Under the pieces are notes generated by a model. The model was not told where the DNA came from and ran no database searches. It was given only the letters and a program-made list of their open reading frames with translations. Below are positions 3,001 through 59,431 of a stretch of 64,000 nucleotides of DNA, piece by piece. Each line of letters opens with the position of its first letter. Position 1 is the stretch's first letter. Source of the stretch: Argopecten irradians (Eukaryota > Mollusca > Bivalvia > Pectinida > Pectinidae); the NCBI RefSeq assembly GCF_041381155.1, contig NC_091142.1, forward strand, positions 29,614,955 through 29,678,954, in the 5' to 3' direction. A program made the position numbers and the translations under genes.

Positions 3001-6000
3001 CAACAAAGGAAGCCATATCGGCAATGTTCTTCAATGTTAGTCAATTAGAGTTATTTCCCTTACGTCACCTTTCGTAACGCTCTGGGGTTTGCATTATATC
3101 TGTGTTGGAATATACACCTTCGGGACTCGTGTGGTGTGAACCATTGTTTGTATAGCGACTTTTTGATGTCAGCCAGTTCACGACTACATGTGTTCACACA
3201 TTTGTTTTGACTGAAATAACAAAGATTCAAGACAGCGTGGACGTTTCACTCGGCTCATTAACAATGTGTTTAGAACAATTACATGTACGGACCAATGAGT
3301 GGCGAAAAGATTGAATCTTCAAAGATATTGTCAACCCCAAATGGAAATTTTTGAACGCACCCAAACATCGATTTTCTCATTTTGTGTCACTATTTATTTG
3401 GGATTTTACAAACACAGACGATATTATGGCTTGTTCAAAACCTTCACGAAAGGCACTGTCCTTAGAGCAACGTGTAGACATTATTAGGTAGAAATTGATC
3501 ATAGGTTAATCTATCTTAATTAAAGTGCGGAAATAATGTTAAATTAAACAAATCATTCATTAATATTAATTTATACGAAAGAGTTGTTTTATTTATCTGA
3601 AGATGTTATAAATTATTTGTCCTGAATAACCTTGCTTTTTTTTTATTTCATATGCAGTATATATAGCTGAAAGTGAATAAGAAAAATACAATTTATCAAA
3701 TAACAGTTTCAGATTCATTTTTCTCTGATTTGATTGAAATGAAAAATATAAATATACTGTACATATTCCTTTAAATAATAATTATGTTACTATTCATTTA
3801 TTCCAAAATGAACCAAATGAAAAGAAAGATTGCTTAGGTTGAACCGCTCGTCAAAACACTGACCTCTATATAAAGGACACTTCTCTATAAAGGACACTTT
3901 AGCCTTGTCACCTGGGTGTCCTTTATACACAGGTTTGACTGTATTTACAGTTAAGTACAGGTAGAACCAGTTAAAATGTGCTGATTTTTCTATAAAGAAA
4001 ATAAGGGCTTGATTGATTGACTAATTAATTCAAATATCTGAATGTCGAACATTTGAGGGGAAAATTCAATACAAACAGGGTATGCTCTTGATTTTATCAT
4101 TCAAACAATAAAAATTCCTCTTAATCATAAAAGGTTTTGACATTATAAATACCTCCGAGTGGTTTGGACAGCTCCTGTGCATACTGCCTCAAGTCCAGAC
4201 TCTGACCAATAATCATGTATCCTACAGCTGAAACACAAGACAGGTAAGATAAAGTTCAGGGAATCCTGGACAGACTATATATCATAAAGTAATGAAACAC
4301 AAGGGCTCATACAGAAAAGAATCCGATTCTGGCATAAATCACTCACATCCACAACTGGATTGTGTTGTCATTAGTTTCATTATAAATTTAAATAGTATTA
4401 ATATAGCATATCTTAGTGATAAAAGCAAGCTTTTATCACACTTGTACATTACATCCAGAATTTTACTTTAATATCACATCCGCAGTAATATTGATGCTTC
4501 AATCATTTTATAATAAAGTTCTATCCTTTCTAATCATGCTCATTTTGTTCCATCTAAAAATACAATGTAATATTTTAGCTAGTGACTTACCCTGTAGAAT
4601 ACTCTCCCTTGTCAATACAATGTAATATTTTAGCTAGAAACTTACCCTGTAGAATACTCTCCCTTGTCAATACAATGTAATATTTTAGCTAGTGACTTAC
4701 CCTGTAGAATACTCTCCCTTGTCAATACAATGTAATATTTTAGCTAGTGACTTACCCTGTAGAATACTCTCCCTTGTCAATACAATGTAATATTTTAGCT
4801 AGTGACTTACCCTGTAGAATACTCTCCCTTGTCAATACAATGTAATATTTTAGCTAGTGACTTACCCTGTAGAATACTCTCCCTTGTCAATGCAATGTAA
4901 TATTTTAGCCAGTGACTTATCCTGTAGAATACTCTCCCTTGTCAATACAATGTAATATTTTAGCTAGTGACTTACCCTGTAGAATACTCTCCCTTGTCAA
5001 TACAATGTAATATTTTAGCTAGTGACTTACCCTGTAGAATACTCTCCCTTGTCAATACAATGTAATATTTTAGCTAGTAAATTACCCTGTAGAATACTCT
5101 CCCTTGTCAATACAATGTAATATTTTAGCTAGTGACTTACCCTGTAGAATGCTCTCTGGGTTTCTCAGCATACCCAATGTAATACCTTTTTAGCTAGTGA
5201 CTTACCACAAAACTCCCTATCCAACCCTGTAGAATGACCCACCCCCATTCAACAAAAACGCACTCTCTGGGTAGAAAAACCATTCTCAGCATGATATACA
5301 CATGCGGGTCCTTTTTTGTGGCTGGCATCAGAGTGTCTTGGAAGTCTTGGTGTGTACAGTGTCGCATTACATGGTTACACGAGATCTGAAACACATCACA
5401 TCAATCTTTCTTAATTCATCAATTATCTCCATGGCTTTTAGAACCGGGAGATATCCATCTCTATTGCTACAATTCATAGATTTTCCTGATTACCACTTCT
5501 GTAGACCACCTACTTAGAGCCTCAAATGCCCAAATTAAAAAAGACCTGTGTATAAAGACCATTTTTCTTTGTCCCTTTGGTGCTCTTTATAGACAGGTTT
5601 GGCCGTATTTTATTTTGCAGCAGAATAACTTATTTTAAATTCCAAACATGCATATTCTACTCCCAATTAACAGATTTTCCTTGCAAAATATTCTTTCTCA
5701 GGGATGAAAAGAAGTTAAGCATTTCTGCTATATAGAAATATAAGGATATTAAGTAACGTATTAAAGTTAAAGAGCTTAGTTAAGCGACTATATCCAATAG
5801 CAGGGCTCTCGATGATTACGGGTTAACACAGTAAACATCAAAATTCCTACTTACCAGTAGTTGGACACAGGGTTTGGTCCGAGATCCAAGTACTTGTTTG
5901 GTATACATGTCAAGGAAAGATCCCTAAAGAGGAAATCACTTTTTATTTAAAGATAATTGAATATGATATACACTGTTGAAATACTGTTATTACATGTTTA

Positions 6001-8872
6001 ACATTACTGTTTATTTCTGTAGTATGAAAATAATAAAACACAAATTAAAATTACCAGTTTATGCAACAAATGTTTTAGCTTCAGTATTTTGTTTTTATTT
6101 CAGAATTATTGCTTTGGTTATATATAGCAGGGAGCCTTATCAACAAATGAGGTTATTAAAGGCCACAAATAATTGAATATCTATTAAAATTCAGGTCTGT
6201 TGATATTCATATCTAAACAATTCACAAACCATACAATTTACCCACTTTGAATTTTTTGAGAAGTTCTTGGTTTTTGGTCTTAGTGAGATAAGTCATGACG
6301 ATTCCGGCCGGACTTAAAACAAACATGGACGCCTCCACCTCTGTCAGTAGTTGGGTATATTCCTCCACGGCCTTGTCGCTCTGTACCAACACAAAAAAGA
6401 AAACTGAGAAAACTTTCCATATACAATAACTATAAGGAGGAGTTTAGGTTTCTAGTAAATCTAACAGGGCAATGGAAACTACCTAAAACACTGATACTGC
6501 TGCTAAAAATCAAGGATGATAAATTTACTCATATTAAATTTATTCAATTAAAATACAAATTAATGCAAAATTGACTGGATATAGATATTGTTTGCATTTT
6601 TAAATTCAAGATCTTGTCCTGAATTTTAATATATGATAGTAAATCTCTGACAGCCTCTGTCTTGATTATGAATTCTTCCTGGTGGTAAAAACTTACCGAT
6701 TTGAAGATCCAGAGGAGTTTCCTGTAGGCAGACATACTGATGGTCTTTGAGCCAGCTGCCAGAGCACCGTATACAAGTCCACATTGTACACCAACCTACA
6801 AAGGTCACGTCACTAAACAACTATTTTCATCAATATTTTCATTTTGGTTTGTAAATTTAGCTAAAAACTGTCAATATTTCTCTTATAAAAAACAAATTTT
6901 GCTATTATAGACTTCCTGTCATTATTTTCCAAGCTCTCATATTTAACCCTTAAAATTCCCATGAACCCAGACTTTTGATAAGACATTACTGTATTTTCTG
7001 GATTATAAATTTAAGTATAAGCCACACTCCTGATCTTAAGTTAAAAAGGTGAAGCTTATACAGTATTTGCAGCCAAATGTGCATCATTAGAGTCTAAAAA
7101 TATAAAATAATGTGGGTACATTTGCCTTACCAGTTGTTTGAAGGAATCCCTGGAGAGTTTTCCTTTGAGGAAGGTCTCCTGCATCACCACACAAGTCCAT
7201 GTCAGAGCAAATAATGCCTCCCCAGACGTACTCTTACTGTAGTGGCAAACAATACAAGTAAGTTTTAATGTTTGTCCAACAGTCACTTTTTCAGCATAGA
7301 ACACATAGTGGAGAAATGGCAATTTAGTGATCAGCATACATAAAGATATAAAGTATCTTAGTGTATACTCATATGTTAGACAAATATAAAAAAATAGCTT
7401 TCACTGTATCAAGGGAAAAGTTTTGTTTTGTTTTTAAACTGATTATACACAATATAAAGAATACACTGCAAATAATGAATGCTTTTAAAAATAGATACAT
7501 TAATGAAAAAAAATATTGCTTCAAAACAAAACAAAAAAACGTTTCAAAGATATAAAATACCATGAATGTTGTTGTTTCTTGTAGAAGTTTGAATGGGGTT
7601 CCAAGGTGTTTGATAATGTTTTGACAGTTGACTCTGGATGGGTCTTTGTTACTGCCCTGATGACCTTTAACACAGCGTGACGGGATTTGTTGTCTTGGTA
7701 ATGGGCGATTGTAGGTGCCAAGAATTTGAAAATCCCTTTTACTGCATTCTCTGGGAATTCTAGAAGGAAAATTAATTTATATTTAAAGATTTGTCTGTAA
7801 TTACAATAAACAAACTTTCAGCATATTAATTATGTAATTTGATATCTAAGTGTTTGACTAAAGAATGATGCCATAAATAGTTCGCAAATTGTTGCATTGA
7901 AAAGAAAAAAATCTAAGAAAACTGGTAGATTTACATTATATTTAGGACATTTTTATGGCATTATTTGATTAATTAAATTATTATCCTGATCTTCTGTTTA
8001 AATTATGATTTTCTCTATATTTATCAAAACAAAGACGATGGGCTCCCTCAAGATTTTTCAAAGAATTTTCAACGAAAATAAAAACCATATGTTTATTTAG
8101 ACACTCCATATATATGAAAAGATTGTAAAACACAAATTTGAAAACTTCAATATCAACATATTATGTCATTTTTATCATCATTTAAGTAATTAACTTTTAT
8201 TTCATTTAAAAGTTTGACTTGAAATATTTACTATTTAATCATTTACTATATAAATACCAATATTGGTTTTTGAAAAGTCATATGAAATTTTCAATAGCGA
8301 AACAGAAAGTACCAAGTCAAACCATTTCAGGGTATCAAAACTATATAATCCTTTTTTCACTCTTACCGGATACACAGCTGAAACTACTGTTTATCCATAA
8401 CACATAAACGTCTGTGAATGAAATTATCAAATCACGTCATGGCTAGCTAGCTTATATGTCTATCAATGACATTTGACTTTTGAGACCACCCCTCAGTTTG
8501 GTAAATAAATTGCAATGAAACGACAAATATACAGACGCTTATGTTCATTCCTACAAATCAATAATTTAAAAAACCACAATGAAAACCAAATATAACATGC
8601 AAATAATTTAAAATCGTTGTCTTTATAACATGTGTTCGAATGTCACCAACTTACCGGGTGTTCCTGCGATCGCTGCCACATCGTTCAGTACGCCGATTCG
8701 CTCTTTTGTGCTCGACACAGAAACTTTCTGTGTAAATCTTTTGAGTATATCTGCATTCTGAAGGAAAAGGGAAAATATATAAGTCGTTTATTTTGCAGAT
8801 TAGTGTAAAATTGACACCTCCACGTGTCATTAAAGAAATCAAACTTACCGTCGTTCCCGCATGTTCCGCCAT
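1..8872 (-). CDS. GCN1: GCN1 (eIF2-alpha kinase activator), 5' part, 11 exons, continues past the left edge
   Basis: HEAT-repeat ribosome-associated protein that activates the kinase GCN2 during amino-acid starvation (family knowledge). Coding exons in transcription order: 8872-8849, 8757-8655, 7759-7561, 7236-7131, 6795-6697, 6380-6246, 5923-5855, exon 8 from 5385, 4227-4153, 2495-2367, 219-67. Junctions are AG/GT and phases agree from exon to exon except at exon 8. Peptides recalled from human GCN1 are clear: LKRFTQKV and STKERIGVL (exon 2), ALFALTWTC (exon 4), FLDMYTKQVL (exon 7), FKNLAVQCSD and HLFGILN (exon 10), GSEGKLTSADQRISVL and FIPMLQQE (exon 11). Exons 1-7 encode 245 residues; the full protein is about 2,670 aa, so only the N-terminal solenoid is here. 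The start lies in AGCATGGCG. Exon 8 is disrupted (separate entry). Confidence 0.93.
999..1653. mobile_element. Foldback (long inverted repeat) DNA element with 9-bp target-site duplication
   Basis: The element starts TAGTCCGCTTAACC and ends with its inverse GGTTTAGCGGACTA. It is flanked on both sides by GTTCACATC (990-998 and 1654-1662). Inside, about 1264-1388 and 1514-1645 form inverted arms of about 125 bp around a 125-bp loop. There is a T-run at about 1030-1047 and no credible coding sequence. Long TIRs with a 9-bp duplication suggest a Mutator-like (MULE) non-autonomous element; that assignment is inference. It lies in the GCN1 intron between exons 10 and 11. Confidence 0.75.
2569..3941. 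mobile_element. Tigger/pogo-like DNA transposon, internally deleted
   Basis: The ends are CAGTCAAACCTG and the inverse CAGGTTTGACTG, both flanked by TA (2567-2568 and 3942-3943), the target duplication of Tc1/mariner/pogo elements. Subterminal sequence repeats AGCGGACAC and AAGGACAC motifs. At 1,373 bp it is too short for an intact Tigger, but it keeps a remnant of the transposase N-terminus (3426-3491). It sits in the GCN1 intron between exons 9 and 10. Confidence 0.78.
3426..3491 (+). pseudogene. Remnant of the CENP-B/Tigger transposase N-terminus
   Basis: The reading frame from ATG 3426 gives 21 residues including KPSRKALSLEQRVDII and ends at TAG 3489-3491. The pattern K-R-K-A-L-(S/T)-L-E-(Q/E)-(R/K)-V-x-I-I is the start of the CENP-B-type DNA-binding helix-turn-helix of Tigger/pogo transposases. 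No further domain follows, so this is a truncated relic inside the 2569-3941 element. The match is short and made from memory. Confidence 0.6.
4563..5160. repeat. 55-bp minisatellite spanning the GCN1 exon 8 splice donor
   Basis: Eleven starts of a 55-bp unit occur at 4563, 4618, 4673, 4728, 4783, 4838, 4893, 4948, 5003, 5058 and 5113, nearly identical. Read on the minus strand, the sense of GCN1, each unit contains AGTATTCTACAGG|GTAAGTCA, which is the 3' end of GCN1 exon 8 (encoding SILQ) plus its donor. A degenerate copy near 5174-5200 and a copy at 5141-5183 that still holds the longer exon end lie at the gene-proximal edge. Confidence 0.9.
5141..5385 (-). other. GCN1: GCN1 exon 8, interrupted copy
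   Basis: The acceptor TTTCAG precedes 5385 and the exon opens in phase with ISCNHVMRHCTHQDFQDTLM, matching human GCN1. After LMPATKK the expected continuation AMLRNPESILQ is broken. Its pieces ATGCTGAGAA, ACCCAGAGAG, CATTCTACAGG and GTAAGTCACTAG appear in the right order between about 5201 and 5300 but are separated by unrelated runs of about 10, 26 and 19 nt, with a further 18 nt before the first piece. An uninterrupted version of the exon tail, MLRNPESILQ with its donor, lies at 5141-5175 but is cut off from the exon body. No single donor joins exon 8 in phase to exon 9, which needs phase 1. Confidence 0.7.
5535..5612. mobile_element. Fragment of a Tigger-derived short repeat
   Basis: AGACCTGTGTATAAAGACC and the inverse-oriented ATAGACAGGTTTGGC enclose about 70 bp that resemble the subterminal parts of the 2569 element. 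Related fragments lie at about 9830-9945, 10760-10905 and 15925-16050. All are short and non-coding. Confidence 0.45.
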
Positions 8873-9345
8873 GCTTGTTGTGCAATGGCTTGTCGTGATA
8901 CCCTCAATTTATATTTATTTTCCATTAATACTTAAGAAAAATTACTTTCAACAAAAACATTGTTCTTTCATAAATGTTTATTAATCAAATAATTCATGAA
9001 GTCTTTTTCAAATTTTGTTTCATTAAAAATAATATAATTATGACTACAATTTATCTTTATTACGAGTACATCAATGTAGTGGAAATCTTTAGAAATGAAA
9101 ATAGAAAATTAAGAATTTCCGCCAAAGAAGGGATGGCGGTGTAGGGGGAATAGTAAATAAGTTCCGGGCTACGAAAATAAGCTATCGTCTATCAGAAAAA
9201 TATTGATTCTTTTGTTTACAAACCAAGCAAAACATTACTTGCCTACGTTAAAAAAAGATATATAAAAACATATTATATTAATACAGAGACATAGATTGTA
9301 TGTCTCGATTACAATTTAAATTTATCTGATACATTAAAGAAAAGT

Positions 9346-9350
<5 letters not shown>

Positions 9351-9376
<26 letters not shown>
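9351..9376. repeat. (AT)n microsatellite
   Basis: Thirteen perfect AT dinucleotides. Confidence 0.9.
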
Positions 9377-11070
9377 GTGCGAGGCAAACGCTTGTATTCC
9401 AAGCAAACTCTACAAAAATATTCAAAACTGTCACCGAAAAAAAGCCGCTACACGCTTGCACACGTGCACTTGACATACATCAACATTGTATGGGCGCAAA
9501 AATCACGAAGGGAGGGGGTAGAGGGGGTAGAGAAAAAAAGGTAATTCAACGACACTATATAAAAAAAATTATGTGAAAATCCTTAGAAATTATTTACAAT
9601 TACCAAATGTTCACTATCAACATCTAGGTCCTTGCAATTATCGTACATTTTAATAGATTTTGCTAAGTATGGATTTGCATATTGATTGACAATGTCAAAG
9701 CAATATTTCAAAACAGAAATATAGATAAGTTAAAAGATAAAAATACATAATGCAATAAATACTTCTGTATGAAGACAATTTACTTCATAAGAACACTCTC
9801 TTGGAGTCCCGAATGACCAGTTTCAAAACAATTAGACCTGTGTATACATTTGTACAACAGACCTCTAGGCTATAAAAGACCATTTTTCTTTGTTCCTTAG
9901 GTGGCCTTTACCAAGTTTTACTAATAGGTTTTACTGTATAGTACACTGTCCAGGGGTTTAAATAGTGTAAGTACACTACGTAACAATTTAGATGTGTGAT
10001 TTATTTTGACCCGGAACAACTTTAAATTGATCACCCAAAATATTCCTCATTCATGGTATTTATTGGAACAGACGTTCGTAAAGATGCTTCAAACTATCCT
10101 ACTATCCTTATTATCACACACAACTTGAGAACATCATCATCGCCCAACTAAACGTTTTCGTTATCTTTACCCTTTATAAATTGGTGCTGAATATCCTAGC
10201 ACAATCCTTGGTAGATCACGCACAGATGTCTGCTTCTGGTTTTGAAAAAAAAAAAAAAAACCTACCCCTACTATATGATCAATAATACATGTGTATTTTC
10301 GCTTTCAAGCACCTCCTCTTTTCGAGTCTGGATGAAAGTGGCGAGTTTTGTCGTTTGATAATGGAAAATCTAAGATTGGACTATAATTTGATTTTAATTC
10401 TTGCTAGCGAAACAGTAGTGTCTACTAGTTTAATAATGTCACGTCATGTGTACGAGCACCAAAAAAACTTACAATATAATATACGCTTAGATAATATAGA
10501 ATCAAAAAAATATTAATTGATATATTACATAAAAACTTATAAATATCATCACCTCGAAAAATTGTTTTATCAATTATATCAGAAAATTTGGACAGTATCA
10601 ACTATCAAGTTTAAATATCTCATTATATATACTTCTTTTATAACGTACTCGATATCATAATATCAAAACTATTAGCTAAGGGGTACCAATTAAGTTTAAT
10701 AATGTCTGTGTTGACAATTAGGCATGTGTATTATTGACGTATATATTAAAATTAATTATACAAAACCTGTCGTAAAGGACACCTTTACACAAATGGCGCT
10801 ATCTATTTAAGGGATTAATTAGGTCAACATGATTGTTTATGGTGCATTTTAATTTATAATTGACCTCTATATAAAGGAAATCTCTTTACATAGGGTAAAA
10901 TGATAGAGAAATACACAAAACTGTACATGATATACGCGCGTATTTTGATGCATAGGAATTTTATTGATTTTGTCAGCATCACGCCATAGAAATGGTAGGT
11001 GAAAAGGATGGGCACCCTCGTCAATAAATAAACACGTCACATCACGACTCCTGACAATTAACAGGCGTTA

Positions 11071-11078
11071 TGACGTCA
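11071..11078. promoter_or_regulatory. CRE-like octamer upstream of RPS6KB1
   Basis: Perfect palindromic TGACGTCA, 766 bp before the RPS6KB1 start codon. An 8-mer can occur by chance; it is noted because a second copy lies at 11707. Confidence 0.3.
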
Positions 11079-11603
11079 AAGGAATACTCCTTTGTGAAGT
11101 TCAGACATTTTTTTAACGTTATAATTTTACAAAGCTTTACGGACTGAAAATGAAAAGTGTTGATTCAGTGCGTGCATGCTAGTCAATACCATCGAGAATA
11201 TTAATTTCTACTTCGAACAGTTATTGAGTTCCTTACGATATATCTACTTGAATAGTATTAACAATATGTAATATTGTAGAAAATTTTTATTGAAAATTTA
11301 TGAAAATAAATTTACTATCATATATCTTAATAAATTCCCACCGAACACTTGCAAGCAATCATAATCAAAAATATTATCCAGATCTAAATTATATTGTTAG
11401 AGGGGCGTATGTATTTAAATGATCTGTTTGATTAATTTATTGTTATTTCTTTGTTTCTGAATATTACTAAATTAAAAGATTGCAACTTCAACGGCAAAAG
11501 GTAAAACGGTCGGGCACCTGCTGCGGTCGTAAAAATGCAGGGATAAAAACTGCATTGACACCGCCGAGCATGCCGAAAATGGTTCAAAGAATTCCCGATT
11601 GAA

Positions 11604-11714
11604 CCAATCAAAAATGACTTAACATCTAAATCTTGTTTCCGTTTTTGATATGAAGCATTTCTATTGGACAAAAATCCTGTAGTGGGGGTTTCGTTCATGT
11701 GATATCTGACGTCA
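11604..11714 (+). promoter_or_regulatory. Putative proximal promoter of RPS6KB1 (CCAAT box and CRE)
   Basis: CCAAT at 11604-11608 in GAACCAATCA, and TGACGTCA at 11707-11714 just before a TATATATGG stretch. These lie 123-233 bp before the start codon, where a promoter is expected. No transcription start can be read from sequence. Confidence 0.35.
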
Positions 11715-11826
11715 TATATGGAATCCCTCGGAAAGATTCCCGGCGAAGTGTAAGGCACTACGTAGTAAAGTAGAAATCTACTTTCAAGATCGTAGTTTCG
11801 ATTTAGACTTCTTTCAAAGGACACAA

Positions 11827-11832
11827 ATGTAG
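11827..11832 (+). promoter_or_regulatory. Start-stop uORF (ATG-TAG) just upstream of the RPS6KB1 start
   Basis: ATG followed directly by TAG, ending 4 nt before the main ATG at 11837. If it is in the mRNA it is a minimal upstream ORF whose only codon is the initiator. The main frame has an in-frame TAG at 11804-11806, so no longer p85-like N-terminus can be encoded contiguously in this exon. Confidence 0.5.
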
Positions 11833-11836
11833 CGAT

Positions 11837-31088
<19,252 letters not shown>

Positions 31089-33333: not shown

Positions 33334-33479
33334 ATTGTATTAAGACTTTTTCTCCAAATAATATCACATGGAAATTTTTATCTGTAATATTTTCTTACAT
33401 ACCTTTGATGTTTTGAATTATTTTATGTATGTAATTATTCATTGTTTTAGCTTGAACTAGTAATATGATTTAGTCAAAG

Positions 33480-36322: not shown

Positions 36323-36531
36323 TATATTCTGTCTTTGCGTATTACAGAGTTAGCTCCCTTGCAGGTAGAATATATAGGTATCCATTGTGACGTCATTATT
36401 TTGTGAGCGTAATTTACGTCATGTTTTTTTTAATCTGGAAAGAATGACGTTATGCTCGCATACACATGACATAACAATTAATACCTAACCACAAGGGCAG
36501 ATAACTCTGTAATATGCAAATACAGAATATC
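36323..36531. mobile_element. Palindromic MITE
   Basis: The left arm TATTCTGTCTTTGCGTATTA with CAGAGTTAGCTCCCTTG pairs with CAAGGGCAGATAACTCTG and AATATGCAAATACAGAATA on the right. The interior has GTGACGTCA and TTTACGTCA. Confidence 0.7.
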
Positions 36532-37494: not shown

Positions 37495-37625
37495 TTTTCA
37501 AATTCTGTTTTTGCGTATTTTAGAGCTATCAGAGTAATACTTGTCAGAAAAATAATGACATCACAATCGATACCTAAATGCAAGGGCAATTAACTCTGTA
37601 TGTAATATGCTATGATGGAATATCA
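37495..37625. mobile_element. Diverged copy of the 36323 MITE family
   Basis: ATTCTGTTTTTGCGTATTTT at the left and GCAAGGGCAATTAACTCTG at the right match the ends of the 36323 element, with a shortened interior. Confidence 0.55.
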
Positions 37626-38391
37626 AGTATATGTATTCATGACTTCAATATAAAAATTGCATTCATTTCAAAGAGATTTTTTGGAGTTGGTTGTCGAACT
37701 TAGACCGAGGTTTAAAATGCTGTCAGTTTAAAGATACAAGCACTCTTATCATCAATGATTGATTGATGGTATGTAAAAGCTCACCTGCAGGTTCTTCCAC
37801 TGTAAATCATTTTTAATAATTACTTTTGCATGAATTTCAATAAAAAATATCAAAGAGCTCTGGATACCAATGCTTACAAAGGCGTGACTGTCACATCTAA
37901 ATAAGATATTTATAAAATTAAGTACCCGGTACTTATGAATATATCTGAATACATAGTCATCCAGAAATCTCCGGATTCAATATTTGACAACACATGTACC
38001 TTGAGAAACATAGAAAACCTACCTGTTTATACATATACCAATAACCACTTACTGAGTAATTCATGAACAAAATCTGAGATCTACTCTAGATAGTATTTAA
38101 TTTTATATATTTAAAGACAGCAACAAATATGTTGTGTCGGCAGAACTGACATCACAATGACAATAATTAATAATCACAAGAGTAGGCTTTCTCTTTGCAT
38201 CTTCACTTTTTAATAGAAATGAAAATATACATTTTCATCAACAAGTCGTGAATTATCAAAGTAAAAAAAAAATTTTTTTTAAAAATGTCATAATAAGTCA
38301 ACAATTTTCCAGTCTCTCTGCATTCATCACTTACATGCTATCAAATATTCTTGCGCTTGGAAAAACATTTCCTTAATAATTGTATTTTCCT

Positions 38392-41300
38392 TTATGCAAT
38401 AAGTAAATAGAAAAGGAAGAGCACAGCTACCCAAAGAAACACTTTTGACAGGAATTGTTCTTCACGGTTCTGTGGTGAGCCAGGAGGGGCTGGAACAGAG
38501 AAATATCAAAATTTACACTTGATATTGAAATTTACTGAAACAATTATATAAACTAAAAAAAATCTGTCAAGTATTTCATGGCTGAGACTTAACTTAATAA
38601 AATGGGTTTTTTTTTAAAAATCATTGATTGTAAAATGTGGAAAGGTTCAAAATGATATTAAGTTTTGTCTTTTGATTTACAAGTTGATAATTAAACAAAT
38701 GCATTTTTCAGTGGTTAAAACTAATTCATTTTTTTGTAAGTGACAAAATATTTTATTTTCTCAAACAATTTCATTTTTCACAGGTCCCCACAGTTTCTTT
38801 TTCCCATGAAAAGAATTTTTTTCCCTTTCTGAATAGTAGTTCAATGTATACCTGGGCCCGGTCGTCCATCATTAAAATTAAATGTTGAGGCGAAAATTCC
38901 AAAAGGAAAAGCACCAATTCCAAATGACATATGAAATCCTCCATCTCCAAAACCAAATCCCTATATTCATAAAGTAAATACAAATTAGATTAAAAAAAAT
39001 TGAAGAAAGGCAACATTAATTTACATCTGAAAGTATCATACTGATAACTCTTGGCTAGCTAATTAGATATTCAGCATATTCCTGAGGTGTACTATTTAAA
39101 CAGTATCTCAATAATAAATGCAGAATTATAATTATAAACACATACAACTACACACAACATTACTTTTCAAGTTTATAGTGAGCTTTTGATGGCTATACTG
39201 TCCATCTAGGTCACTTTAACTTTGGCGTTAGGTGGCGCGACTATGTCACACGTATATAAATCAGTTTTGATCAAATTCAACAGTGATTCTCTATAGTTGC
39301 CACAAAACAATGCAGTCTGTACATACCCCTCCTTGATTTTCTGGTTCAGATCTTTGACCTGCTGGTCGGGGTGGCAGTTTTTCCCTGTGAAGAACAAAGG
39401 AAAATGATTCAAAGTTATATAGAGAAAAAGGAATCTTGAATACTGTAAATGTACATATTTTAGCAGTAGTTATGAAGCGATAATTCATGTACAGCATTAA
39501 GTTTTGTAAAGGGGTTATTCAGATATTGAACCATCAAATTGTGCTAAAACCTTTGGTTTACTATCTAATCTCAGTCTTAAACTCAACTGATTAAGCTTAA
39601 AGTTCTCTCTAGTCGAGAGGTATAATGCGACTTGTTTGACCAGGGTTACATAAACATAATACACTGTAATGACAGTATGTTTGTCAGTGTGTCACCATGC
39701 TTTACCTTGGGTCCTGTTGGTTGCTGGAACCTCTACCATACACAGGAATCACTTTGTCTTTCCCAATTCCAGCTTTACATACTGGACACATCTGTCTCTG
39801 TGGTCGGGTCTCTAACCACTGGTGCAGGCATGGCCAGCTATATTGATATAAAAAAATAAATAAACTATTTTCTTAAAAACATCAGTGGGGTTAAATATCA
39901 AGTTAATCAAAATCAATAATTGGGGATCGGCTGGGTAGTAAAACAGCTAGGTCATGAACTTGTCATTCTTTCAGTTTTGTCATATGGTTGACACTCTACC
40001 ATTTGCTGTAAGGAAAATTGCCCCAGCCAAAACAGAAGTCATCACTTGTCCTTCAACACAGAGAAACCAAGCCTGATCCAGATAATGCCAATGCTATCTA
40101 TAGTACTGTAGCTACGGATCCTGGCCCGTAATTCTCAAAACAAACTAAAGTAAAAAACTGACTTTTAAAGTCATAAATTTTCATATAAGTTACATAAGGA
40201 GAAAAACTTTGATCTTGCTATTACTCTAGTGATTAAGCTACCTCGCCACTGATAGCTAAGTAAATTTTTCCCTGTTTAGGACTCGGAGCCTACCATAAGT
40301 TGTACAGAGAAAATGAAGAGGTTAGTCCAGGGTTTTGACTAATGATCAGAACCTCTGAATACAAGCTGTATGCTCTGTGTAGTGAGCTCTAGCTACTTAT
40401 TCACCGATGATCTACCAACCAATATATAACTTAAGTCACAAACAACTCATAAGTTTGCATATCCTCTGCTAAGTGAACTCACAATGCTTAAAATCGTCAG
40501 GGATCAGCAGCCTTGAAAATTTTGTAACAGGAGTGGAGAAAATGTAGTGACCAGACTTGGGTTTGAATGCAGGACCTCTAAACACTAGCTTGATGCTCTA
40601 TTGATTGAGCTACTGGCAACCCCTAATTGTATTGTCACACCAGCTATTCCAATCATCAGTGAAGAGCAAGGTAACTCAATTTGTAGAGCATCCGGTCGGC
40701 CAGTTTTGAACCATAGGATGGCCGCTACATCTTCTCTTCTACTGTTACTGTTAGACTGTTACACTACAATAATAGCTACATTTTCATGTAGGTATTCTAT
40801 GGTAACAGGAGAGGAGAAAATGTAGCGGCCAGACCAAGATTCGAATACGGAACCGAATATTCTACTGTTGAGCTATCTAGTCACCGATGATCAACCCACA
40901 GGGACCTGGCATGAAAATTTTTAACCAATAGTATACATATATATATTATAGTTTCAAGGGTATGAACTAGGCGGTCGGAAAAAACAGACCTATTTTTTTT
41001 AAACCTTGATTATTTTAATAAATTAGTTCTATACAACATTGATGGACATCTTACATTAAAGAGAAATAATTTAATTTACGGTGACGGTTAATGTAACAGA
41101 GCTACACGATGTTTAAATGGAGTTTTTACAAAGTACGGGTCATGACACCTCCAAAGGAGATTGTGGATGAATACAGTTATGGGTACTGTTTACCACCACA
41201 AGCTTAGATTTTGTGATTTTGGCTTGGTTTTTGAGGTACCCGTTAGAGCCGAGACGACATTTCGACCGGACAGGGAAATGTCTACCTAGCAATTTTTTCG

Positions 41301-41819
41301 TAAATTTACCGATTCATCAAGCCATAACTTCGTCAATACTTGGCCAATTTTATTCATCAAGCACTCAATGGAAATAAAATTATTTCTCTTTAGGGTAAGA
41401 TATCCGTCAATGTTGTATAGAACCCATTTATTAAAATAATCTCTGTTTTAAAAAAATAGGTCAGTTTATCTAGACCGCCGAGTTCATACCCTTGATACTA
41501 TAATATATATATATATATATATACTGTTAGTTTCAAGAAAATCGTGCCAGGTCCCTGTGGATCAACCCAGTCCAATCCTACTACACTTTTTTTTGGTCAC
41601 AGATATCAAAATGAGGAATGAAACATAAAGTTAATTCAAACTAACAATAATTTACCACAATAAATCGTACCAAAATAAATGTCCACACATGCTGACAACC
41701 GGATCACGTGCCGTATCCAAACAAATATTGCACTCATAAAATGTCCCTGCATCCGTGTCTGCGGAATCTGCTCCACCTGGAGGCGTGGTGCCTCCCTCGG
41801 CTCCTGTTGGCGTCGCCAT
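38392..41819 (-). CDS. RNF185: RNF185-like membrane RING-type E3 ubiquitin ligase, complete, 5 exons, 181 aa
   Basis: Endoplasmic-reticulum (and reportedly mitochondrial) E3 ligase of the RNF5/RNF185 family, working in ER-associated degradation (family knowledge). Exons in transcription order: 41819-41671, 39837-39706, 39384-39327, 38960-38852, 38489-38392, all AG/GT with agreeing phases (546 nt). The RING-HC is complete: C30, C33, C45, H47, C50, C53, C67, C70, with [16 protein letters not shown] and MCPVCKAGI. Then come [38 protein letters not shown] and a C-terminal hydrophobic helix [16 protein letters not shown] ending the protein. The second segment and tail fit RNF185 (192 aa in human) better than RNF5 (180 aa); invertebrates may have a single gene for both. 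Introns 1 and 2 are larger and carry SINE and foldback debris. Confidence 0.95.
40540..40890. mobile_element. Cluster of tRNA-like SINE fragments
   Basis: Three box A/box B-like pieces: minus strand about 40540-40620 (GTAGCTCAATCAATAGAGC, then CATTCAAACCC), plus strand about 40661-40735 (TAACTCAATTTGTAGAGC, then TTTTGAACC), and minus strand about 40815-40885 (TTCGAAT, then AGCTCAACAG inverse). They share GGAGAAAATGTAG tails. None folds into a convincing tRNA. Confidence 0.5.
40897..41559. mobile_element. Foldback element with CACAGGGACCTGGCA ends
   Basis: It starts CACAGGGACCTGGCA and ends with the inverse TGCCAGGTCCCTGTG. GATCAACC, or up to GATCAACCCA, flanks both sides (40889 and 41560): an 8-10 bp target duplication inside an older SINE. 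Arms extend about 170 bp (for example GTTCTATACAACATTGA against its inverse near 41412). An (AT)n run lies at about 41501-41522. RNF185 intron 1. Confidence 0.75.
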
Positions 41820-42481
41820 ATTAGATATTCTGTTTTACACCTGAACTCTTTAACGATACTATGCTATACACGCCATAATTCCGCAAAATGAAGGCAAAAC
41901 TCGGATCTCTACTTCATTATGCTCATGTCACGTCAAAATAAGATTTCCTCAGAAAGTTCCGGAAGTTACTGTGTTGACGTATTACTACTCATGCGCAATA
42001 AACATGGTAAGGGAGATAATAAATCCTAGGTGTCAGACAAGTAAATTAAAACCAGAGATAGTGTATAATCGGAGATATAATTGGAAATGACATCTTTAAT
42101 ATTCATTCCAATATTTCTGTTGAACATTATCAAATGATGAAAAAATGTGCAAATTAATATGAAATATCCAGGATCGTTTGTTTATAAACTGCATAATTAT
42201 AATATAATTTATATCGACACAACTCCGATGTACAAATACAAAGGCCGCCCTCGATCGATGTTAATGTTTTTGGTGCAAATTCATCAATCGGCAAATAATA
42301 CGTATTGGAACAGTACTTCCATGAATAGATTAAAATAATCATGCGACTACAGCGCCACCTTTTATAAGTTTTACGCTCGATTCCTACTTGTGCGCCTAAT
42401 GTATCATAGTTAATTAATACAAATGCCAAAGATAAATTATTTTGGTGTAATAACATAGTATTTGGTATTATCTTTTTAACG

Positions 42482-44343
42482 CAGGCGCGGATTCAAGGGG
42501 GGGCGGACCCGGCGTACGCCCCCCCTAAAATAGGAGAGAGAGAAAAAGAAAAAGGAAAAAGAAGGGAAAAAGAAAGAGGGGATGGAAGGAAAAGAAGGAA
42601 GAAAGAAAAAAAAGAGGGAGAAAGGGAAAAAATTAAGGAATTAGATAAAGAGTGAGAATTAGACAGAAAGCTCCATTTCCTACCATTACCGTTTGATGTT
42701 ATCATTTTAAAATCTAAATGTATTCGACTTTGTGGTACATACATGCATGAACATACTTGTATCCAGGCACAATGGAATAATTATATATTTTTTTTTCGTG
42801 TAAGTTTAGGTTTTATCTCCATCGCTTAAAAGGTACAATGTAAATCCCTTCAAGTATTTACTTTTTCCAAAAAAAAAAAACCCGATAAAATCCCAATATA
42901 TTAGATAATTTATTGTCATTGATATTCAATATTGACAGGTTATATCTCGATATCCTTAGCAATAAAAGAAAAGGGGGAGGGGTGGGTGGAAGAAATTGTA
43001 GCTGGCCATGAGTCTTCGCTGGTTGACTATATGTCATGCCCTTCGTTTTCCAGGTTGTAAATGATATATTACACATTTTTGAATAAGCATTAAAGTCCTG
43101 TATTAAATCCGACTATCAATTCACAAATGTGTGCGTACTTTCAAAACGCCAGTTACAAGATCACTACTGACGCCGAATGCTTCTAGAAGCCTTTTATTTG
43201 TCCTAAGAAAATGTATGTAAAGAAAAAAGTGGAATGCGACAGAAAATGAGAGCCTCTAGGGTCTGGGTGTACTCCATGGCCAGATGCCTTCCTTTTTTGT
43301 TTCAATAAAAACATATTTTTTTATAACGATAATGTTATAAGATAGGCAAACGATGTTAAAAAATTAATACACATGACAAAAGGCTCCCTATTAGAAAACA
43401 GGATGATAGCAATAGTTCCTGGCACCGTATGGCCATAGACAAGACCACTAGCCTTCTTTTCTTTCGTTGTCCAATACACGAATTATAAAGATTGTGTAAG
43501 TTAGGGAAAATGAATTATCTAATCTGACAGATAATGTATAAAAGTAAAAGCTTATATCGTTAAAAAGTTCACATACACTTTCATTAGTCCTATAAAAACC
43601 TTCAATAGGCGACCCCTAGCTGCAATATTGTAGCTCAAAAGACTTTTAGACTGAAAATTGTGTCTTCTTTAGAGCTACAATTGTTCCCTGTTACTTCAAA
43701 ACCTTCAAAAAAGTATGAAAAACTGTGCCCGAGTGATTTTCGGAGGCAGTGCTCCACTACGATACATATAGGGACCAATTCGTACCCGGCCTAAAGGCAT
43801 AGTAGGCCGGGTACGTATATTCGTTCTAGGCGGCCCCCAGACCCCCATCCCTTTCTTTGCTTCGTGCCTCTATGAATAGATATTCAGATTTTTGGCAGTG
43901 CAATTCTGTAACTTTATATTCAAAATATGACATTAGACGTCAAAAATAATAAACGAACATTTTTACATGGCTTCAATTATTTTTTGGAAAAAGTGTACAT
44001 TTGTTTGAGGGCTTCTGGGGGCCTAGGCGGCCCCCACCCAGACCCCCGCCCTTCTTCGCTTAAGTCCATATAAATATTAAGATTTTGATATTGCAATTCT
44101 GTAAGTAAAAAAAAAAAATCAAAACTTCAAATAAAAAATATGACACTTGACACGAAAACCATAAATAAACATCCATAAATGGCTTCAATTATTTTCTGGA
44201 AAATGTGTTCATGAAATCCTCAGAATGCAGGATTTTGCACCATTTATTCGAGAGCTTCTGGGGGCCTAGGCGGCCCCCAGACCCCTCGCCTGATTTGCTT
44301 TGTCCCACGCCCCCTCTAACCTCAAAACCTAAATCCGCCCCTG
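42482..44343. mobile_element. hAT-like non-autonomous element
   Basis: The left end CAGGCGCGGATTCA and the right end, whose inverse is CAGGGGCGGATTTAGG, form imperfect TIRs of the CAGGGGCGGAT type seen in hAT elements. A purine-rich stretch lies at 42530-42655. About 200-bp internal units repeat near 43830, 44025 and 44265, each with GGGGGCCTAGGCGGCCCCC or a variant. A clean 8-bp target duplication is not visible, so the left and right ends could belong to two elements. Confidence 0.5.
43610..43840. repeat. Repeat module shared with 45085-45608
   Basis: AGCTGCAATATTGTAGCTCA, TAGAGCTACAATTG, CGAGTGATTTTCGGAGGCAG, GACCAATTCGTACCCGGCC and GTAGGCCGGGTA occur here and again at 45085-45155 plus 45495-45608. 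There they are separated by about 340 bp of other sequence. Confidence 0.75.
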
Positions 44344-45084
44344 TAACGGTATACACTTCTTCATCATATCTGTTTGGGTTTTCTTGCAATTTACAGTTTT
44401 GCTCTTTTTCTTTCTTTTTTTTTTAAATAGAGCAATTTCATTTCATTAGTTTTTAATGAATTTCTATAACAATGACAAACCCCGATTATCGTAAAATTTT
44501 GGCACTCAATATTACCTTCATATATCATTTATTGACTTATGAAAAATAGTGTCGATGAACCACTGGATATGCCGACTTTTTAGCATTTGTTACCCAATAT
44601 CAAAGTACTGTGAGTTAAAAACGTAAAAAAATGCTTAAACGAAAAATGTCCTTCTCTCGGCTCTATCATGAATAAAAAGCCGCTTTAGCGACGTTATAGT
44701 GGTGTTTAAAGTATCACATGCAAGTTTATGTACCGAAGTTTTGTCAATCTAACCTACGTATTGACCTTTGACCTACACCTAAAAAATAACTTGCCTATAT
44801 ATCATATATATGTATTGCCAGAATTCATCACAGGTGCACGCATTTTGTTTTACGGCAAGACGATACAATGGATGTCATGTTAATATTCAATATTAATTCA
44901 ATAATTTACTGTAAAGTGCCCATGGAAACATATGCTAGTGATATACATTTATTTTTACCAAAGTCTTTGTGCTTTGTAAAGCTGTTTTTCATATGCTTGA
45001 CAAGTTGGTATTTTCTGACTGACCATTCAAATCAATGTCATTATGGTTATACCAGTTCTATTAAAAAGAGACCATGGTCAATCG

Positions 45085-45608
45085 TAGCTGCAATATTGTA
45101 GCTCAAAAGACTTTTTGACAGAAAATGATGTCGTCTTTAGAGCTACAATTGGTGCATATTACTGCTAATGGAGCAAAGTAATGATTATGCAAACCATTAT
45201 AAAACGTTTGTTTGCATTTTTATTGTACTTGTTTAATATCGCTTACCTTCTAGGCAATAAAACTGAACCACATAAAATATATCAAATTCTCATCGAGGCA
45301 TAATTTTTTTACATAATACATATGAAGGTCTTTCTGAAGGGAATTTATACGGCAAGTCCACAAATTGTGAATTTAACGTCTTGTGAGCGGTACGGCAGAT
45401 ATTAAGAATGATAGTTATGTTTGTTTTGGACAAAAATCATATGTAAATGCATGTATACGCATAAAATAATTGGAAACCTACAAAAAAGTAAAGAAAACGA
45501 TGCCCGAGTGATTTTCGGAGGCAGTGCTCCACTACGACACATGGGACCAATTCGTACCCGGCCGAAAGGTATAGTAGGCCGGGTATGTATATTCGTTCTA
45601 GGTCAATC
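45085..45608. repeat. Second, interrupted copy of the 43610 repeat module
   Basis: Same motifs in the same order as 43610-43840, with about 340 bp of AT-rich sequence between the two halves. The two copies differ by scattered substitutions. Confidence 0.7.
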
Positions 45609-46258
45609 GCATCGTCGGTTAATATATATCAAAACATTAATTCAATGCTCGCCAATGCACACATGCTTAAACGTGTCCATGTATATGATGCTGCGCCTAC
45701 AAAAAAAGATACATGGTGATGTCTGAGTATTATTGTTTACAGCTGAAACGGTCCTCATAGTAAACTCTGGAATGGATAATCCAGTTTGTTTTTGTTAATT
45801 GTAAAACAGTATCCTATAGATGCATTTTTAATGTGTTGATGAAACTCAGCATTTACTAAACAAATTATCGGCATGCAGATCTTTGGAGTTTGTGCGAGCT
45901 TAGTCCACTAAATTTGACTATATTATAAGTAATGGCCTTTCTTGCCTAAAATAGTTTTATCAGGTAAGACCCCCCCCCCCCCCCAAAAAAAAAAAAAGAT
46001 TAAAAAAAATAAGGTGGGTTTAGTCGACTAGTGAGAGCTAGACGTGGCTGTGAGCGTCAGCTACCTGAAAGGTAGATTTTATATGTATAGAAAAAATAAT
46101 GCACACATCCACTGATAACGTTCTAAAGTTATGATTTTACTTGTTTGTCGTACAATGATATCTAAAACAACTTTAACTTATTTCAGTAATATAATGTTAT
46201 TACAACAAAGACTCGTGTTCATCAGAATATTGTTCAAATTTTGTACTTTTTACTGTAA

Positions 46259-47053
46259 CTAAAGTCTTCTCTTCTTTCCATCGGAGGACACTGTTATTCG
46301 GCCTGTGTTTCCTTGTGATGCCAGTTTCTCCTGGAGATCGGATACAGCGTACTTGAGATGATTTATCTCCCTTTCGTATTCCGTTTTCAGATGCTGGAGC
46401 TTCTTTCGGAAAATCTCCTGATTCGATGAACTTGACTGTGCAGGAGGAATGGATGTCTTTTGTTTCAGTTTTGACAACTTATTTTCATAATCCATCGACA
46501 TTTTGAGGATTTCAGATTCCTTATCATTGATGGATTTATTCAATTTTTGTTGCATCTCGCAAATTTCGTCGTTTTTCTGTTCAATGATTTGATACAGCTT
46601 TCCAACCTCTTCTTTCTTTTCTTTATTCATTGAATCTATCAATTTGCTCTTTTCTTCGGAATGTTTTTCTAGCATTTCTTCCATCAACTTCGAATGCTTT
46701 ATTTTTTCAGTGTGTAGTTCAGATTTTGCTTCATGGAGCTCGGTTATTTTATTTCTTAACTCTGCTTGACCCTTTCTTATATTTTCATCCATGTCACAAA
46801 CAGTGTGTAGTTGTTTATGTAGAGTATCAATCATTCCTTGAAGATCAGAGACAGATTTTTCAAGTTCGACGATCTTCCTCTCCAACCTTTCCTTGTCTGC
46901 TTTGACATTTTTTGCTTCCTCTGATAGTTCAGATTTTCTCTTTACCAATTCAACGATAGCCAGCTGCCAGTTATCAAATGTGTCAATGATACAGTCGAGC
47001 TCTAAACACTTTTTATTATGACTTTTCGCTGATGACTTGTCACCCTCCTCCAT
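46259..47053 (-). CDS. CCDC152: CCDC152-like coiled-coil protein, 264 aa, single coding exon
   Basis: Predicted long coiled coil of unknown biochemical role. Residues of about 55-185 are a charged heptad-type coil (KADKERLERKIVELEKSVSD and similar), and a second coil covers about 215-248. The C-terminal block IFRKKLQHLKTEYEREI followed by LQEKLAS and the end GKKRRL matches human CCDC152 (recalled IYRRKLQHF, IRDLEQRLS, LKRRRF). The human protein is about 254 aa, so the length fits. The coding sequence is uninterrupted. A likely 5' UTR intron (47478 down to 47072) is inferred from ATG|GTAAGA and TTAACAG. The gene is head to head with RUSF1. Confidence 0.8.
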   Translation of the reverse strand: MEEGDKSSAKSHNKKCLELDCIIDTFDNWQLAIVELVKRKSELSEEAKNVKADKERLERKIVELEKSVSDLQGMIDTLHKQLHTVCDMDENIRKGQAELRNKITELHEAKSELHTEKIKHSKLMEEMLEKHSEEKSKLIDSMNKEKKEEVGKLYQIIEQKNDEICEMQQKLNKSINDKESEILKMSMDYENKLSKLKQKTSIPPAQSSSSNQEIFRKKLQHLKTEYEREINHLKYAVSDLQEKLASQGNTGRITVSSDGKKRRL

Positions 47054-47197
47054 CGTAGACTAGAAAATTTCCTGTTAAGTAAAACAGATATATTTCTCTT
47101 GTATTCTTATATTTTAAAACCCGCAATCACGAAAACAATTTGTTACAATAAGGACTAACTGATAAATACTGCTTTCTGATTATTGCTTCAGTTGCCG

Positions 47198-47293
47198 CAC
47201 AGGGCCATGTATAGTTTCTATATGAAAAATAGCCAGAAATACACGGCCATGTATATTTTTCATATAGAAATTAGATCTATACATGGCCCTGTG
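47198..47293. mobile_element. 96-bp foldback element with 7-bp target duplication
   Basis: It starts CACAGGGCCATGTATAG and ends CTATACATGGCCCTGTG, flanked by GTTGCCG on both sides (47191-47197 and 47294-47300). Inner arms TTTCTATATGAAAAATA and its inverse make almost the whole element a hairpin. Its CACAGGG terminus is shared with the 40897 element. Confidence 0.85.
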
Positions 47294-47762
47294 GTTGCCG
47301 TCTGTTATTCTTCCAGTTGCCTCAGACACACGTTCCTACTGGTCCGTCAGACTCAGTGTATGAATTGAATATTTCTAAGTGGTATGCAAAAGTTAACAAA
47401 AGCAACAATCTTCCATTCACTAATTGCAGTTGTACAAATAACAATGAAAGCATAAATCCCTATTTAACATGATCTTACCATACTGAAACAATGCAATCAA
47501 ATTTTTCCGGCAACGAAACTTTCACAGGAAGTTGTCTGGGTAAAATGGCGCTTTATTATGCTGTGCATTTCTAAAGAACGCTCGAAAGACTAAGATTTAT
47601 TTTTTGGCCTACCATACAGAAGTTAAGATACAACTGAATAGTAATCAATAATTATAAATTTAATGTAGGCCTAGCAAGAAAGGAATGACAGTCTTATGCT
47701 TTAAGTTGCGGAAAAAAATAAAGGTGCTATCTACTTTCACTTTCTATTTGACAGGAAGGCGA

Positions 47763-47778
47763 TAGCGCCACCTGGTGT
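47763..47778. promoter_or_regulatory. CTCF-like motif between divergent genes
   Basis: TAGCGCCACCTGGTGT differs at two positions from the core TAGCGCCCCCTGGTGG of the animal CTCF motif as I recall it. It lies 79-94 bp before the RUSF1 ATG. Sequence match only. Confidence 0.35.
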
Positions 47779-47856
47779 AACATAACGGATGTACACATCA
47801 TATCACAGCCACACAATACGTTGTCAGGTTGTTGTTAGTGTTATGCTATATATGAC

Positions 47857-50800
47857 ATGGGAGACACTGTACTATGCAGGGAAGGATATGGCTCGTCTCG
47901 TGTGAAAAAGAATTATGTATCAACAAACGATGGACAGTTGGTGGTGGTCGATCGCTCGCCCACTGGGACGTCAGTTTCTCACTTCTTCAGGGTAAGTTCT
48001 AAAAATAGAGTTCCACGTGTTTTATGTATACAACGTTAAACGTTTACATATAGTGTTTTGAAATACATATTTGTTGCATATGAATTGCCAAACAGTTTTG
48101 TTCTATTTGTAATGATTTTATCAATAAAGTTTATCCAATCAATGCATTATATAAGGATGCTAGCCAGGGTTTTGATTTTACTGTACTATACATATAACAT
48201 GCATACATACATATACATCATTAAGATGGCATCGCAACACCACTACAAAAAGTGGAATAGGAAAAGGACTTCAGTTTTGTTATTACATATTCAGAGTTGG
48301 GTTTAATGACAGTGATAGTAACCCCTGGAGTACCGAAGATGGTGCTTAGCATACTATTTTGTATCAGAGGTGGATCATATGCAGTATCTGTTACAAATTT
48401 ATTAGATTAGGCACTTTTCAAAGAATTATGTGGTTGTCTTCCAAATTGTCTGTTGAAATCAATAGACATACACATTTATTGTACCTGCATCAGCTGCATG
48501 TACATGCATACATGCCATACCTCCCGGCGTGAGACAAAACCTCCTGTATTTTAAAGCCTTTTATTGTCTCCCGACAGGAGAGTCTAAATTCCCGATTTCT
48601 ATAAACCCCTCCGTTTTATTTTTGTTGCCACATTTGTGTACATGCTAGGTTAATTTTAGCACGAGAGTAACCACTCCCTGACCCCCTGACCAACACCCAA
48701 GTGGCCCTAATTAGCAGCCTTGGGCTATTTCCACCTTGGCTTGTGGTGTCACTTTCACTCACGTCTGTGTATTACGTAAACTGACGTCAAGCAGCCGATC
48801 GGCTGCCTAGAAAACAATCAGCTGGCCTTTCAATAAATTTTATGACTACAGCTAGTGAGCATTACAACAAAACAAATACTGCTTACAACTGTGAATGATT
48901 TACTCACGTTTTTAATGTTAAATAGGCCTATCTGTATTTGATGGATGTCACAAACTTTGCAATCGTAATGGCCGCCATTTTGGGTAATTGTAATAGATGA
49001 TCCGGATTTTATAGAATTTCCGGATTTCCTAATAACCACGTTTTTAAAAATGGAAAAAGTATTATTTTTTTTTAGAATTTCTGTGTGAATTTATTTTTAG
49101 AAAAAAAATATATTAATTATAAAAAATTATCAGTAGTAACTGAATTTAAATAGATAAAATTAAAAAGAAATTTACTTTTTTTCTCTCTCAGATTAAATTA
49201 CATTTTGAATACTACTGTAACGATTCTGTTTTTTTTTTTTAATTTAGTGCTTGTAAGAACTTTATCTAAGTTAATTATCCGTTATTGTGAAAGATTATTA
49301 AAAAGCCCAGTCTAATATTTCGAATAATAAAACTGCTCCAGAACTGGGTGTATATAGGGATGTCACTACTTTTGCAAAACCACACATTCCTTTATGTCAG
49401 TAAAATTCAATATGAATGCAGAATTTCATCATAAAAAAGCAGATATTTAATTTATTCATACATGTCGCGCGTATACCTCCCTCTTTTGAGACCAAAATCC
49501 CTCAAAATGGTTATCAATCTCCCTCACCACCCCTAGAAAAATATGGCATGTATGTACATGTAGCTGTACACTGAAAATGAAGACTGTAACTGGCCGGTAT
49601 TACTTGCTCAACTATACAAAAACATGTCCCTGTATTGTATGAAATATAAATGGAATGTTTTTGCTTCTTTATTTTGCAGTCAGTATTTCTACCTCAAGGC
49701 TATCCAGAGAGTGTAAGCCAGGATTATCTGGAGTATCAGATATGGGACACAATTCAGGTAATAAACACTATAAAATAGCTGTATCAGATATGGGACATAA
49801 TTCAGGTAATACACACTATAAAATAGCTGTATCAGATATGGGACACAATTCAGGTAATAAACACTATAAAATAGCTGTATCAGATATGGGACAAAATTCA
49901 GGTAATAAACACATTAAAATAGCTGTATCAGATATGGGACACAATTCAGGTAATACACACTGTAAGTAGCTGTATCAGATATGGGACACAATTCAGGTAA
50001 TACACACTATAAAATAGCTGTATCAGATATGGGACACAATTCAGGTAATAAACACTATAAAATAGCTGTATCAGATATGGGACACAATTCAGGTAATACA
50101 CACTGTAAGTAGCTGTATCAGATATGGGACACAATTCAGGTAATACACACTATAAAATAGCTGTATCAGATATGGGACACAATTCAGGTAATACACACTA
50201 TAAAATAGCTGTATCAGATATGGTAACAATTCAGGTAATACACACTATAAAATAGCTGTATCAGATATGGGACACAATTCAGGTAATACACACTATAAAA
50301 TAGCTGTATCAGATATGGTAACAATTCAGGTAATAAACACTATAAAATAGCTGTATTACAAATTATATCAAAGGGTCAAAACCGATATAACAGTACAGAT
50401 ATAGGGGATACTATGTACATTGATTACTAATGTATTGGTGTATAGTGTATCTCATATATCTAATGATTAGATTCTACACTTGACTCAAAGGGTCAAAACC
50501 GATATAAAAGTACAGATATAGGGGATACTATGTACACTGTTTACTAATGTATTGGTGTGTCTCATATATCTAATGATTAGATTCTACATTTGACTTTTAC
50601 CTCCAATACTACTTGACTGGAAGGTTTATATAGGTTGTCAATGATTTCTTCATCCAATTGTTTTTACTTTGGTAATTGATTATTTTTTCCAGGCATTTGC
50701 CAGTAGTATTACCGGAACTCTAGCGGCCCAGGCTGTACTGAAAGGTGTGGGCGTAGGAGATGAAAATGCAACAGTGTTGGCTGCAACAATGACTTGGATA

Positions 50801-59410: not shown

Positions 59411-59431
59411 AACAAAACTTATTTTGTAATA

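Follow-up and report, generated by a model that had tools for sequence, protein, structure and literature searches.

Tandem repeats that span exon-intron boundaries have been named mirages in amphioxus, where they are known from Adh3, the globin genes BflGb6 and BflGb9, PGBD5 and troponin C; in these reports they occur at both 5' and 3' boundaries, splicing is regular and repeat lengths are unstable (PMC3087553, PMC3902484). The same work connects mirages with the model of intron gain by tandem duplication (PMC3087553, PMC3902484). Human genes within segmental duplications carry internal tandem repeats where exon meets intron, averaging 30 bp x 4, and in recent paralogues these have been connected with alternative or new introns (PMC2812944). 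Here we examined a 64,000-nucleotide stretch of the genome of the scallop Argopecten irradians (NC_091142.1, positions 29,614,955 to 29,678,954; hereafter the window), in which minisatellites lie at exon borders of RPS6KB1, RUSF1 and a GCN1-like gene. An exon of muscle myosin in this genome is identical at 101 of 101 residues to the myosin structures 1dfk, 1dfl and 1b7t, the three matches with alignments listed; these structures are of scallop myosin from Argopecten irradians, which points to an Argopecten scallop. An initial sequence-only reading of this window had known of no named system of this kind; mirages are such a system. We consider it probable that the scallop arrays are mirage-type minisatellites, which would arise by short-homology tandem duplication across a border, be tolerated and then grow. 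The amphioxus Adh work reportedly comes from Canestro et al. in 2002, the tandem-duplication model of intron gain is said to go back to Rogers in 1989, and intron gain by single tandem duplications is reportedly on record for fly and potato.

Four arrays were recovered within a few bases of the positions given by the sequence-only reading, and Tandem Repeats Finder returned the same unit lengths of 55, 80, 54 and 48 bp. On the plus strand, RPS6KB1 exon 8 (18627-18717) ends at a GTAAGT donor at 18718, and its 80-bp array (18667-21369, interrupted by two copies of a tRNA-like short interspersed nuclear element, SINE) repeats about 51 nt of the exon end together with the donor, mostly GTAAGT. RUSF1 exon 2 (SVFLPQGYPESVSQDYLEYQIWDTIQ; 49680-49757, plus strand) is followed by a GTAATA donor at 49758, and the units of its array (49733-50356, 48 bp x 13.1) hold about 25 nt of the exon end plus GTAATA. 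The donor-side array of the GCN1-like exon 8 (4559-5156, minus strand, 55 bp x 10.9) carries in its units a copy of the exon end and a donor, mostly GGGTAAGT. The fourth array (25905-26929, plus strand, 54 bp x 19.0) precedes the RPS6KB1 exon at 26929-27036; its units finish in TTGTCTTTTGTATGACCAG, with a few variants, at the acceptor (26927-26928) and contain at most 1-2 nt of exon. The claim that units include the neighbouring exon end or its splice site is thus borne out for the three donor arrays, and for the acceptor array as regards the splice site but not the exon end. As had also been proposed, the units consist of local sequence and look unrelated between genes when compared by eye, unlike a single mobile family. 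The joined kinase exons had RPS6KB1 as their best solved-structure match (E value 9e-50), and the joined RUSF1 exons matched Pfam UVB_sens_prot (E 1.5e-82), a family to which RUSF1 belongs. The GCN1-like exon matched Pfam GNC1_N weakly (E 0.062), and the GCN1 label of this minus-strand exon otherwise comes from its apparent resemblance to GCN1. The identities of RPS6KB1 and RUSF1 are certain and that of GCN1 is weak.

Border overlap recurred beyond the window and exceeded random placement several-fold in the samples taken. A gene-first sample comprised 64 exon stretches (L131-L194), taken from 44 of the 82 listed Pfam myosin-head matches and 20 of the 21 listed AAA matches, in which arrays of at least 2.6 copies with a period of at least 18 were counted. 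With 128 edges, a unit length of 45 bp and non-exon DNA of about 49 kb taken as assumptions, chance would place 10.5% of arrays across an edge. Five of 13 arrays did so, against 1.4 expected (P = 0.008): donor arrays of 54 bp (L158) and 25 bp (L187), acceptor arrays of 56 bp (L159) and 60 bp (L150), and a diverged donor array in L139, with a 21-bp row of 2.0 copies on the border and a 34-bp row of 2.6 copies just beyond it. The eight non-spanning arrays lie in L132, L133, L155, L158, L172, L186, L188 and L194. Omission of L194 (18 bp x 3.3, 68% match) gave 5/12 (P = 0.0054), a count for which P ranged from 0.0005 to 0.016 under other unit lengths and edge numbers, and addition of the two-copy L157 gave 6/14 (P = 0.002). 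At L157 (131-373), the start of a myosin exon, on its acceptor side, is duplicated as a 118-bp unit (2.1 copies, 99% identical). Because 118 is not a multiple of three, the frame would be kept only if one copy were skipped; this looks like a young, founder-like case. For the window, a post hoc estimate with four of ten arrays at exon edges gave P = 0.0047, with about 80 exon edges estimated rather than counted.

A neutral sample was drawn from arrays on contig C1 holding TGAATGG, GGAAAGT or CATCCAA, motifs without splice signals, at the first 100 places listed for each. A donor lay inside the unit in 6 of 26 arrays, including those at POLRMT (Pfam RNA_pol, E 8e-17) and OPA1 (E 9e-9), compared with an assumed 3.25-6.5% (P = 1.5e-4 to 0.006; P = 0.04 at an assumed 10%). 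Three arrays (G9, T4 and T5), either diverged or no more than about 20 bp from an exon, were excluded from these six, at least eight with an edge outside the fetched stretch were scored as non-spanning, and the microsatellite-like T1 and T9 were omitted. Outside the 26, arrays picked by the acceptor motif TTTCAGG (L128-L130) yielded two further arrays with no exon edge where read. Among arrays chosen by the donor motif AGGTGAGT, 9 of 12 distinct ones (L049 merged with L048) begin at an open exon, as do two of five chosen by GGTAAGT, including enolase (Pfam E 6.5e-10). For these motifs, too, at most 100 C1 places were listed. Single AGGTGAGT sites read as coding donors in five of 20 cases, with two uncertain, giving a Fisher p of 0.01 against the arrays, or 0.066 when the two uncertain singles are counted. 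Exons in the neutral and donor-motif samples were called by reading, from an open reading frame and a splice motif; weak homology was found for one laminin-G exon and one UreF exon.

Genome-wide counts of three motif copies at 40-70 bp spacing, with the reversed motif as control, pointed in the same direction in this 846-Mb genome. GGTAAGT formed 27,446 triples compared with 7,322 for its reverse (singles, 141,817 and 129,344), and AGGTGAGT formed 4,669 compared with 1,118 (singles, 27,765 and 16,647), corresponding to normalised array concentrations of 3.4-fold and 2.5-fold, respectively. GGAAAGT, from which the donor GT is removed, gave 4,112 versus 2,382 (1.7-fold, unnormalised), so that other causes can produce a ratio of about 1.7; in some of its arrays a donor is present at another place in the unit. 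CATCCAA gave 5,700 versus 11,528, the complement of its reverse, GTAGGTT, being donor-like by coincidence. The acceptor 7-mer TTTCAGG was barely enriched (3,830 versus 2,774), which is no proof of a donor bias because the motif is weak. Since triple counts give long arrays more weight and a non-donor motif reaches 1.7-fold, they support rather than prove a border excess.

The position of the junction within the unit was uniform over 21 donor arrays (Kolmogorov-Smirnov p = 0.72, on values taken by eye), which argues against a cut made exactly at the splice site and favours freely placed breakpoints that straddle it. Breakpoints showed the homologies TAT at RPS6KB1 and GTAT at RUSF1, and at enolase a 12-bp imperfect repeat of which the array holds the intron's version. 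Border duplication occurs at donors and acceptors alike (for example, L158 and L150). In samples assembled without donor-motif choice, donors outnumbered acceptors 12 to 3 (p = 0.035, on small numbers), a surplus expected if the spliceosome takes the first donor it meets. Later donor copies are not clearly protected: their GT core was altered in 7 of 352 cells, compared with 2.9% at non-donor positions, and their donor 9-mers changed at 1.8% versus 2.9%, a pooled difference, while none of nine arrays tested had a donor 9-mer unusually conserved relative to sliding windows.

We propose that an array is founded when a small piece of DNA that by chance covers an exon-intron border undergoes tandem duplication, probably by slippage from one short direct repeat to another or by template switching between them. 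The extra copy would be tolerated as long as the outermost splice site, the one continuous with the remaining exon, yields a normal message, and the array could then grow and stay uniform through slippage or unequal exchange, lengthening the intron. Here we infer outermost-site use, the route of duplication and tolerance as a filter. The overlap with exon borders noted in the sequence-only reading extends beyond the window and exceeds chance in the samples taken; the process acting at splice junctions that this reading suggested stays a hypothesis, and a site-specific cut is not favoured, the junction position being uniform. The border excess may reflect selection or a local hotspot of mutation close to exon ends, and we favour, as a guess, a raised rate of duplication near the exon ends of transcribed genes. 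It is possible, and we put it forward tentatively, that such ends are true tandem-duplication hotspots in this lineage, with a few per cent of borders carrying an array (in the gene-first sample, five edges out of an assumed 128). If so, border-seeded minisatellites would continually feed intron growth in scallops, and amphioxus would have a source of the same kind.

Several observations weigh against this account. Tolerance explains why arrays are allowed and cannot explain an excess at borders over neutral non-coding DNA. The first unit had been taken to be the functional junction itself, a claim that fails at the GCN1-like gene: the intact part of exon 8 covers 5283-5385 (minus strand), and the exon's own end is broken in the assembly, its exon-continuous copy (about 5283 down to 5170) carrying inserts of about 10, 26 and 19 nt. 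The first intact copy, by our reading of the sequence, lies at about 5172-5142, after intron-like sequence. Use of the outermost site looks impossible at this gene in this assembly. The break may be a fault of the assembly or may reflect damage to the allele, and a search of the assembly for a second copy of the border stretch found none. The array thresholds of the gene-first sample were chosen after looking, and a strict count with L139 as non-spanning gives 4/13 (P = 0.04). At the window acceptor array, G6 and N7, breakpoint homology amounted by eye to no more than one or two bases. Many exon calls consist of an open frame and splice motifs only. A GLUT-like exon had no match in PDB, four of ten exons in one Pfam batch had no match, and in a second batch six of ten had none and the other four matched weakly (E 0.012-0.22). 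An exon classifier built on codon usage and acceptor scores was dropped as a filter, with the homology-proven enolase, RPS6KB1 and RUSF1 exons below its 95% control line; it passed only 38 of 55 training donors, and as a rank test it did not separate array from single AGGTGAGT sites (p = 0.096).

Separately, the inserts in the GCN1-like exon end (5170-5283, minus strand) are G/T-rich, with the look of allele damage or of a read left unpolished.

The simplest alternative, which we regard as unlikely, is that a genome full of minisatellites places some of them on exon borders by chance. Arrays are indeed very common, as the 27,446 triple windows for GGTAAGT illustrate, and no exon contact was seen in eight of the 13 gene-first arrays and in at least six of the 26 neutral arrays with both edges read; moreover, the window was noticed for its striking look, and the strict gene-first count reaches only P = 0.04. 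Against chance stand the independent gene-first sample on its main count (P = 0.008) and the neutral sample, in which 6/26 departs from the assumed 3.25-6.5% at P = 1.5e-4 to 0.006 and from 10% at P = 0.04. Decidedly unlikely, in our view, is selection for extra donors, according to which additional U1-binding sites would aid exon definition or protect long introns. The enrichment of GGTAAGT and AGGTGAGT in arrays genome-wide would fit such selection, as would the surplus of 12 donors over 3 acceptors (p = 0.035) in samples without donor-motif choice and the slightly lower rate of change in later-copy 9-mers (1.8% versus 2.9%). However, the GT core lacks clear protection in later copies (7/352 changed), none of the nine tested arrays has an unusually conserved donor 9-mer, and acceptor arrays exist too.

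An assembly artefact, with repeats inflated or misjoined at borders, appears improbable. In its favour, the assembly breaks up the end of the GCN1-like exon, one array locus has an inverted copy about 233 kb away (L048/L049), and one published amphioxus mirage was misassembled in the draft. Yet copies differ among themselves, a SINE was inserted and re-duplicated inside the RPS6KB1 array, unrelated genes are hit, and the amphioxus cases are backed by reverse transcription PCR or resequencing (PMC3087553, PMC3902484). That the arrays created the introns they occupy, as in intron gain by tandem duplication, is very improbable. Tandem copies of the AG/GT border are common to both, and the amphioxus authors proposed this origin, but the introns continue past the array to an unrelated acceptor (RPS6KB1, 21370-21724; RUSF1, 50357-50692). 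Least probable of all is a mobile element or introner inserting at AGGT sites. Mobile elements seem to contain some of the arrays, as the shared flank sequence of T3 and A5 suggests, whereas units at different genes look unrelated by eye and hold local exon sequence, with the junction anywhere in the unit. Mirage-type duplication across the border, tolerated and then grown, remains our favoured explanation.

Other repeats were seen in the window and on C1. Within the RPS6KB1 array, the tRNA-like SINE at about 19981-20194 and 20691-20904 was duplicated along with adjoining units, so that large blocks of the array must have been copied after its insertion. Consistent with the sequence-only reading, which had listed other arrays without exon sequence, the long arrays beginning at 52984, 54001 and 57039 show no exon edge where read. 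A 25-bp array occupies 59421-64000, its far end beyond the window, and carries the donor-like TAATAGGTAAGATT in most units; no exon was found at its visible edge, which falls in a repeat. A dispersed satellite with repeats of about 130-161 bp lies at 27358-30041, with very similar sequence at C1:204797-205587 and at a single further C1 site. Elsewhere, a very similar 41-bp unit recurs in two arrays of L040 (1-169 and 1063-1483), about 900 bp apart with apparently two exons between them. The L048 and L049 loci are alike over the compared stretch and inverted, about 233 kb apart on C1, perhaps through segmental duplication or because a haplotype was retained. Flank sequence is shared by two arrays that lack an exon edge (L039 and L077), so that some minisatellites may be the cores of mobile elements.

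The scallop arrays are of the known mirage kind; what is new is the phylum and a first rough estimate of frequency. In the open-access literature, a search found no report of mirages in molluscs, bivalves or scallops, and, judged by title and first lines, no further paper on arrays at exon borders; abalone and earthworm papers describe intronic minisatellites, in the parts available not as border-spanning. As far as the accessible literature goes, mirages have come from a handful of amphioxus genes, and the scallop adds a second phylum in which a measurable share of borders is involved. Two questions thereby become testable in one genome, namely how introns lengthen and whether duplication is more frequent near exon ends than in other non-coding DNA. 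Gene prediction and assembly can also be misled by the arrays, which contain coding sequence and strong splice sites in many copies. Compared with the described systems, introners share sequence among copies at different genes, which by eye the scallop arrays do not. Intron gain by tandem duplication resembles them in its tandem copies of the AG/GT border and differs in that the new intron is the duplicated segment, whereas the RPS6KB1 and RUSF1 arrays only lengthen existing introns. In the human segmental-duplication genes, too, minisatellites sit at exon-intron boundaries and change the structure of introns, but they are shorter, the scallop arrays being longer and several of them lying in widely conserved genes. 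The closest likeness is to mirages: the window donor arrays at RPS6KB1, RUSF1 and the GCN1-like gene, and others elsewhere, are boundary-spanning minisatellites, the window acceptor array includes the splice site with almost no exon, and duplication affects 5' boundaries in some arrays and 3' boundaries in others, as in amphioxus. Whereas mirages were described in single cephalochordate genes, the arrays reported here come from a scallop, were sampled across the genome with controls from the sequence of one assembly, and reach up to about 60 copies.

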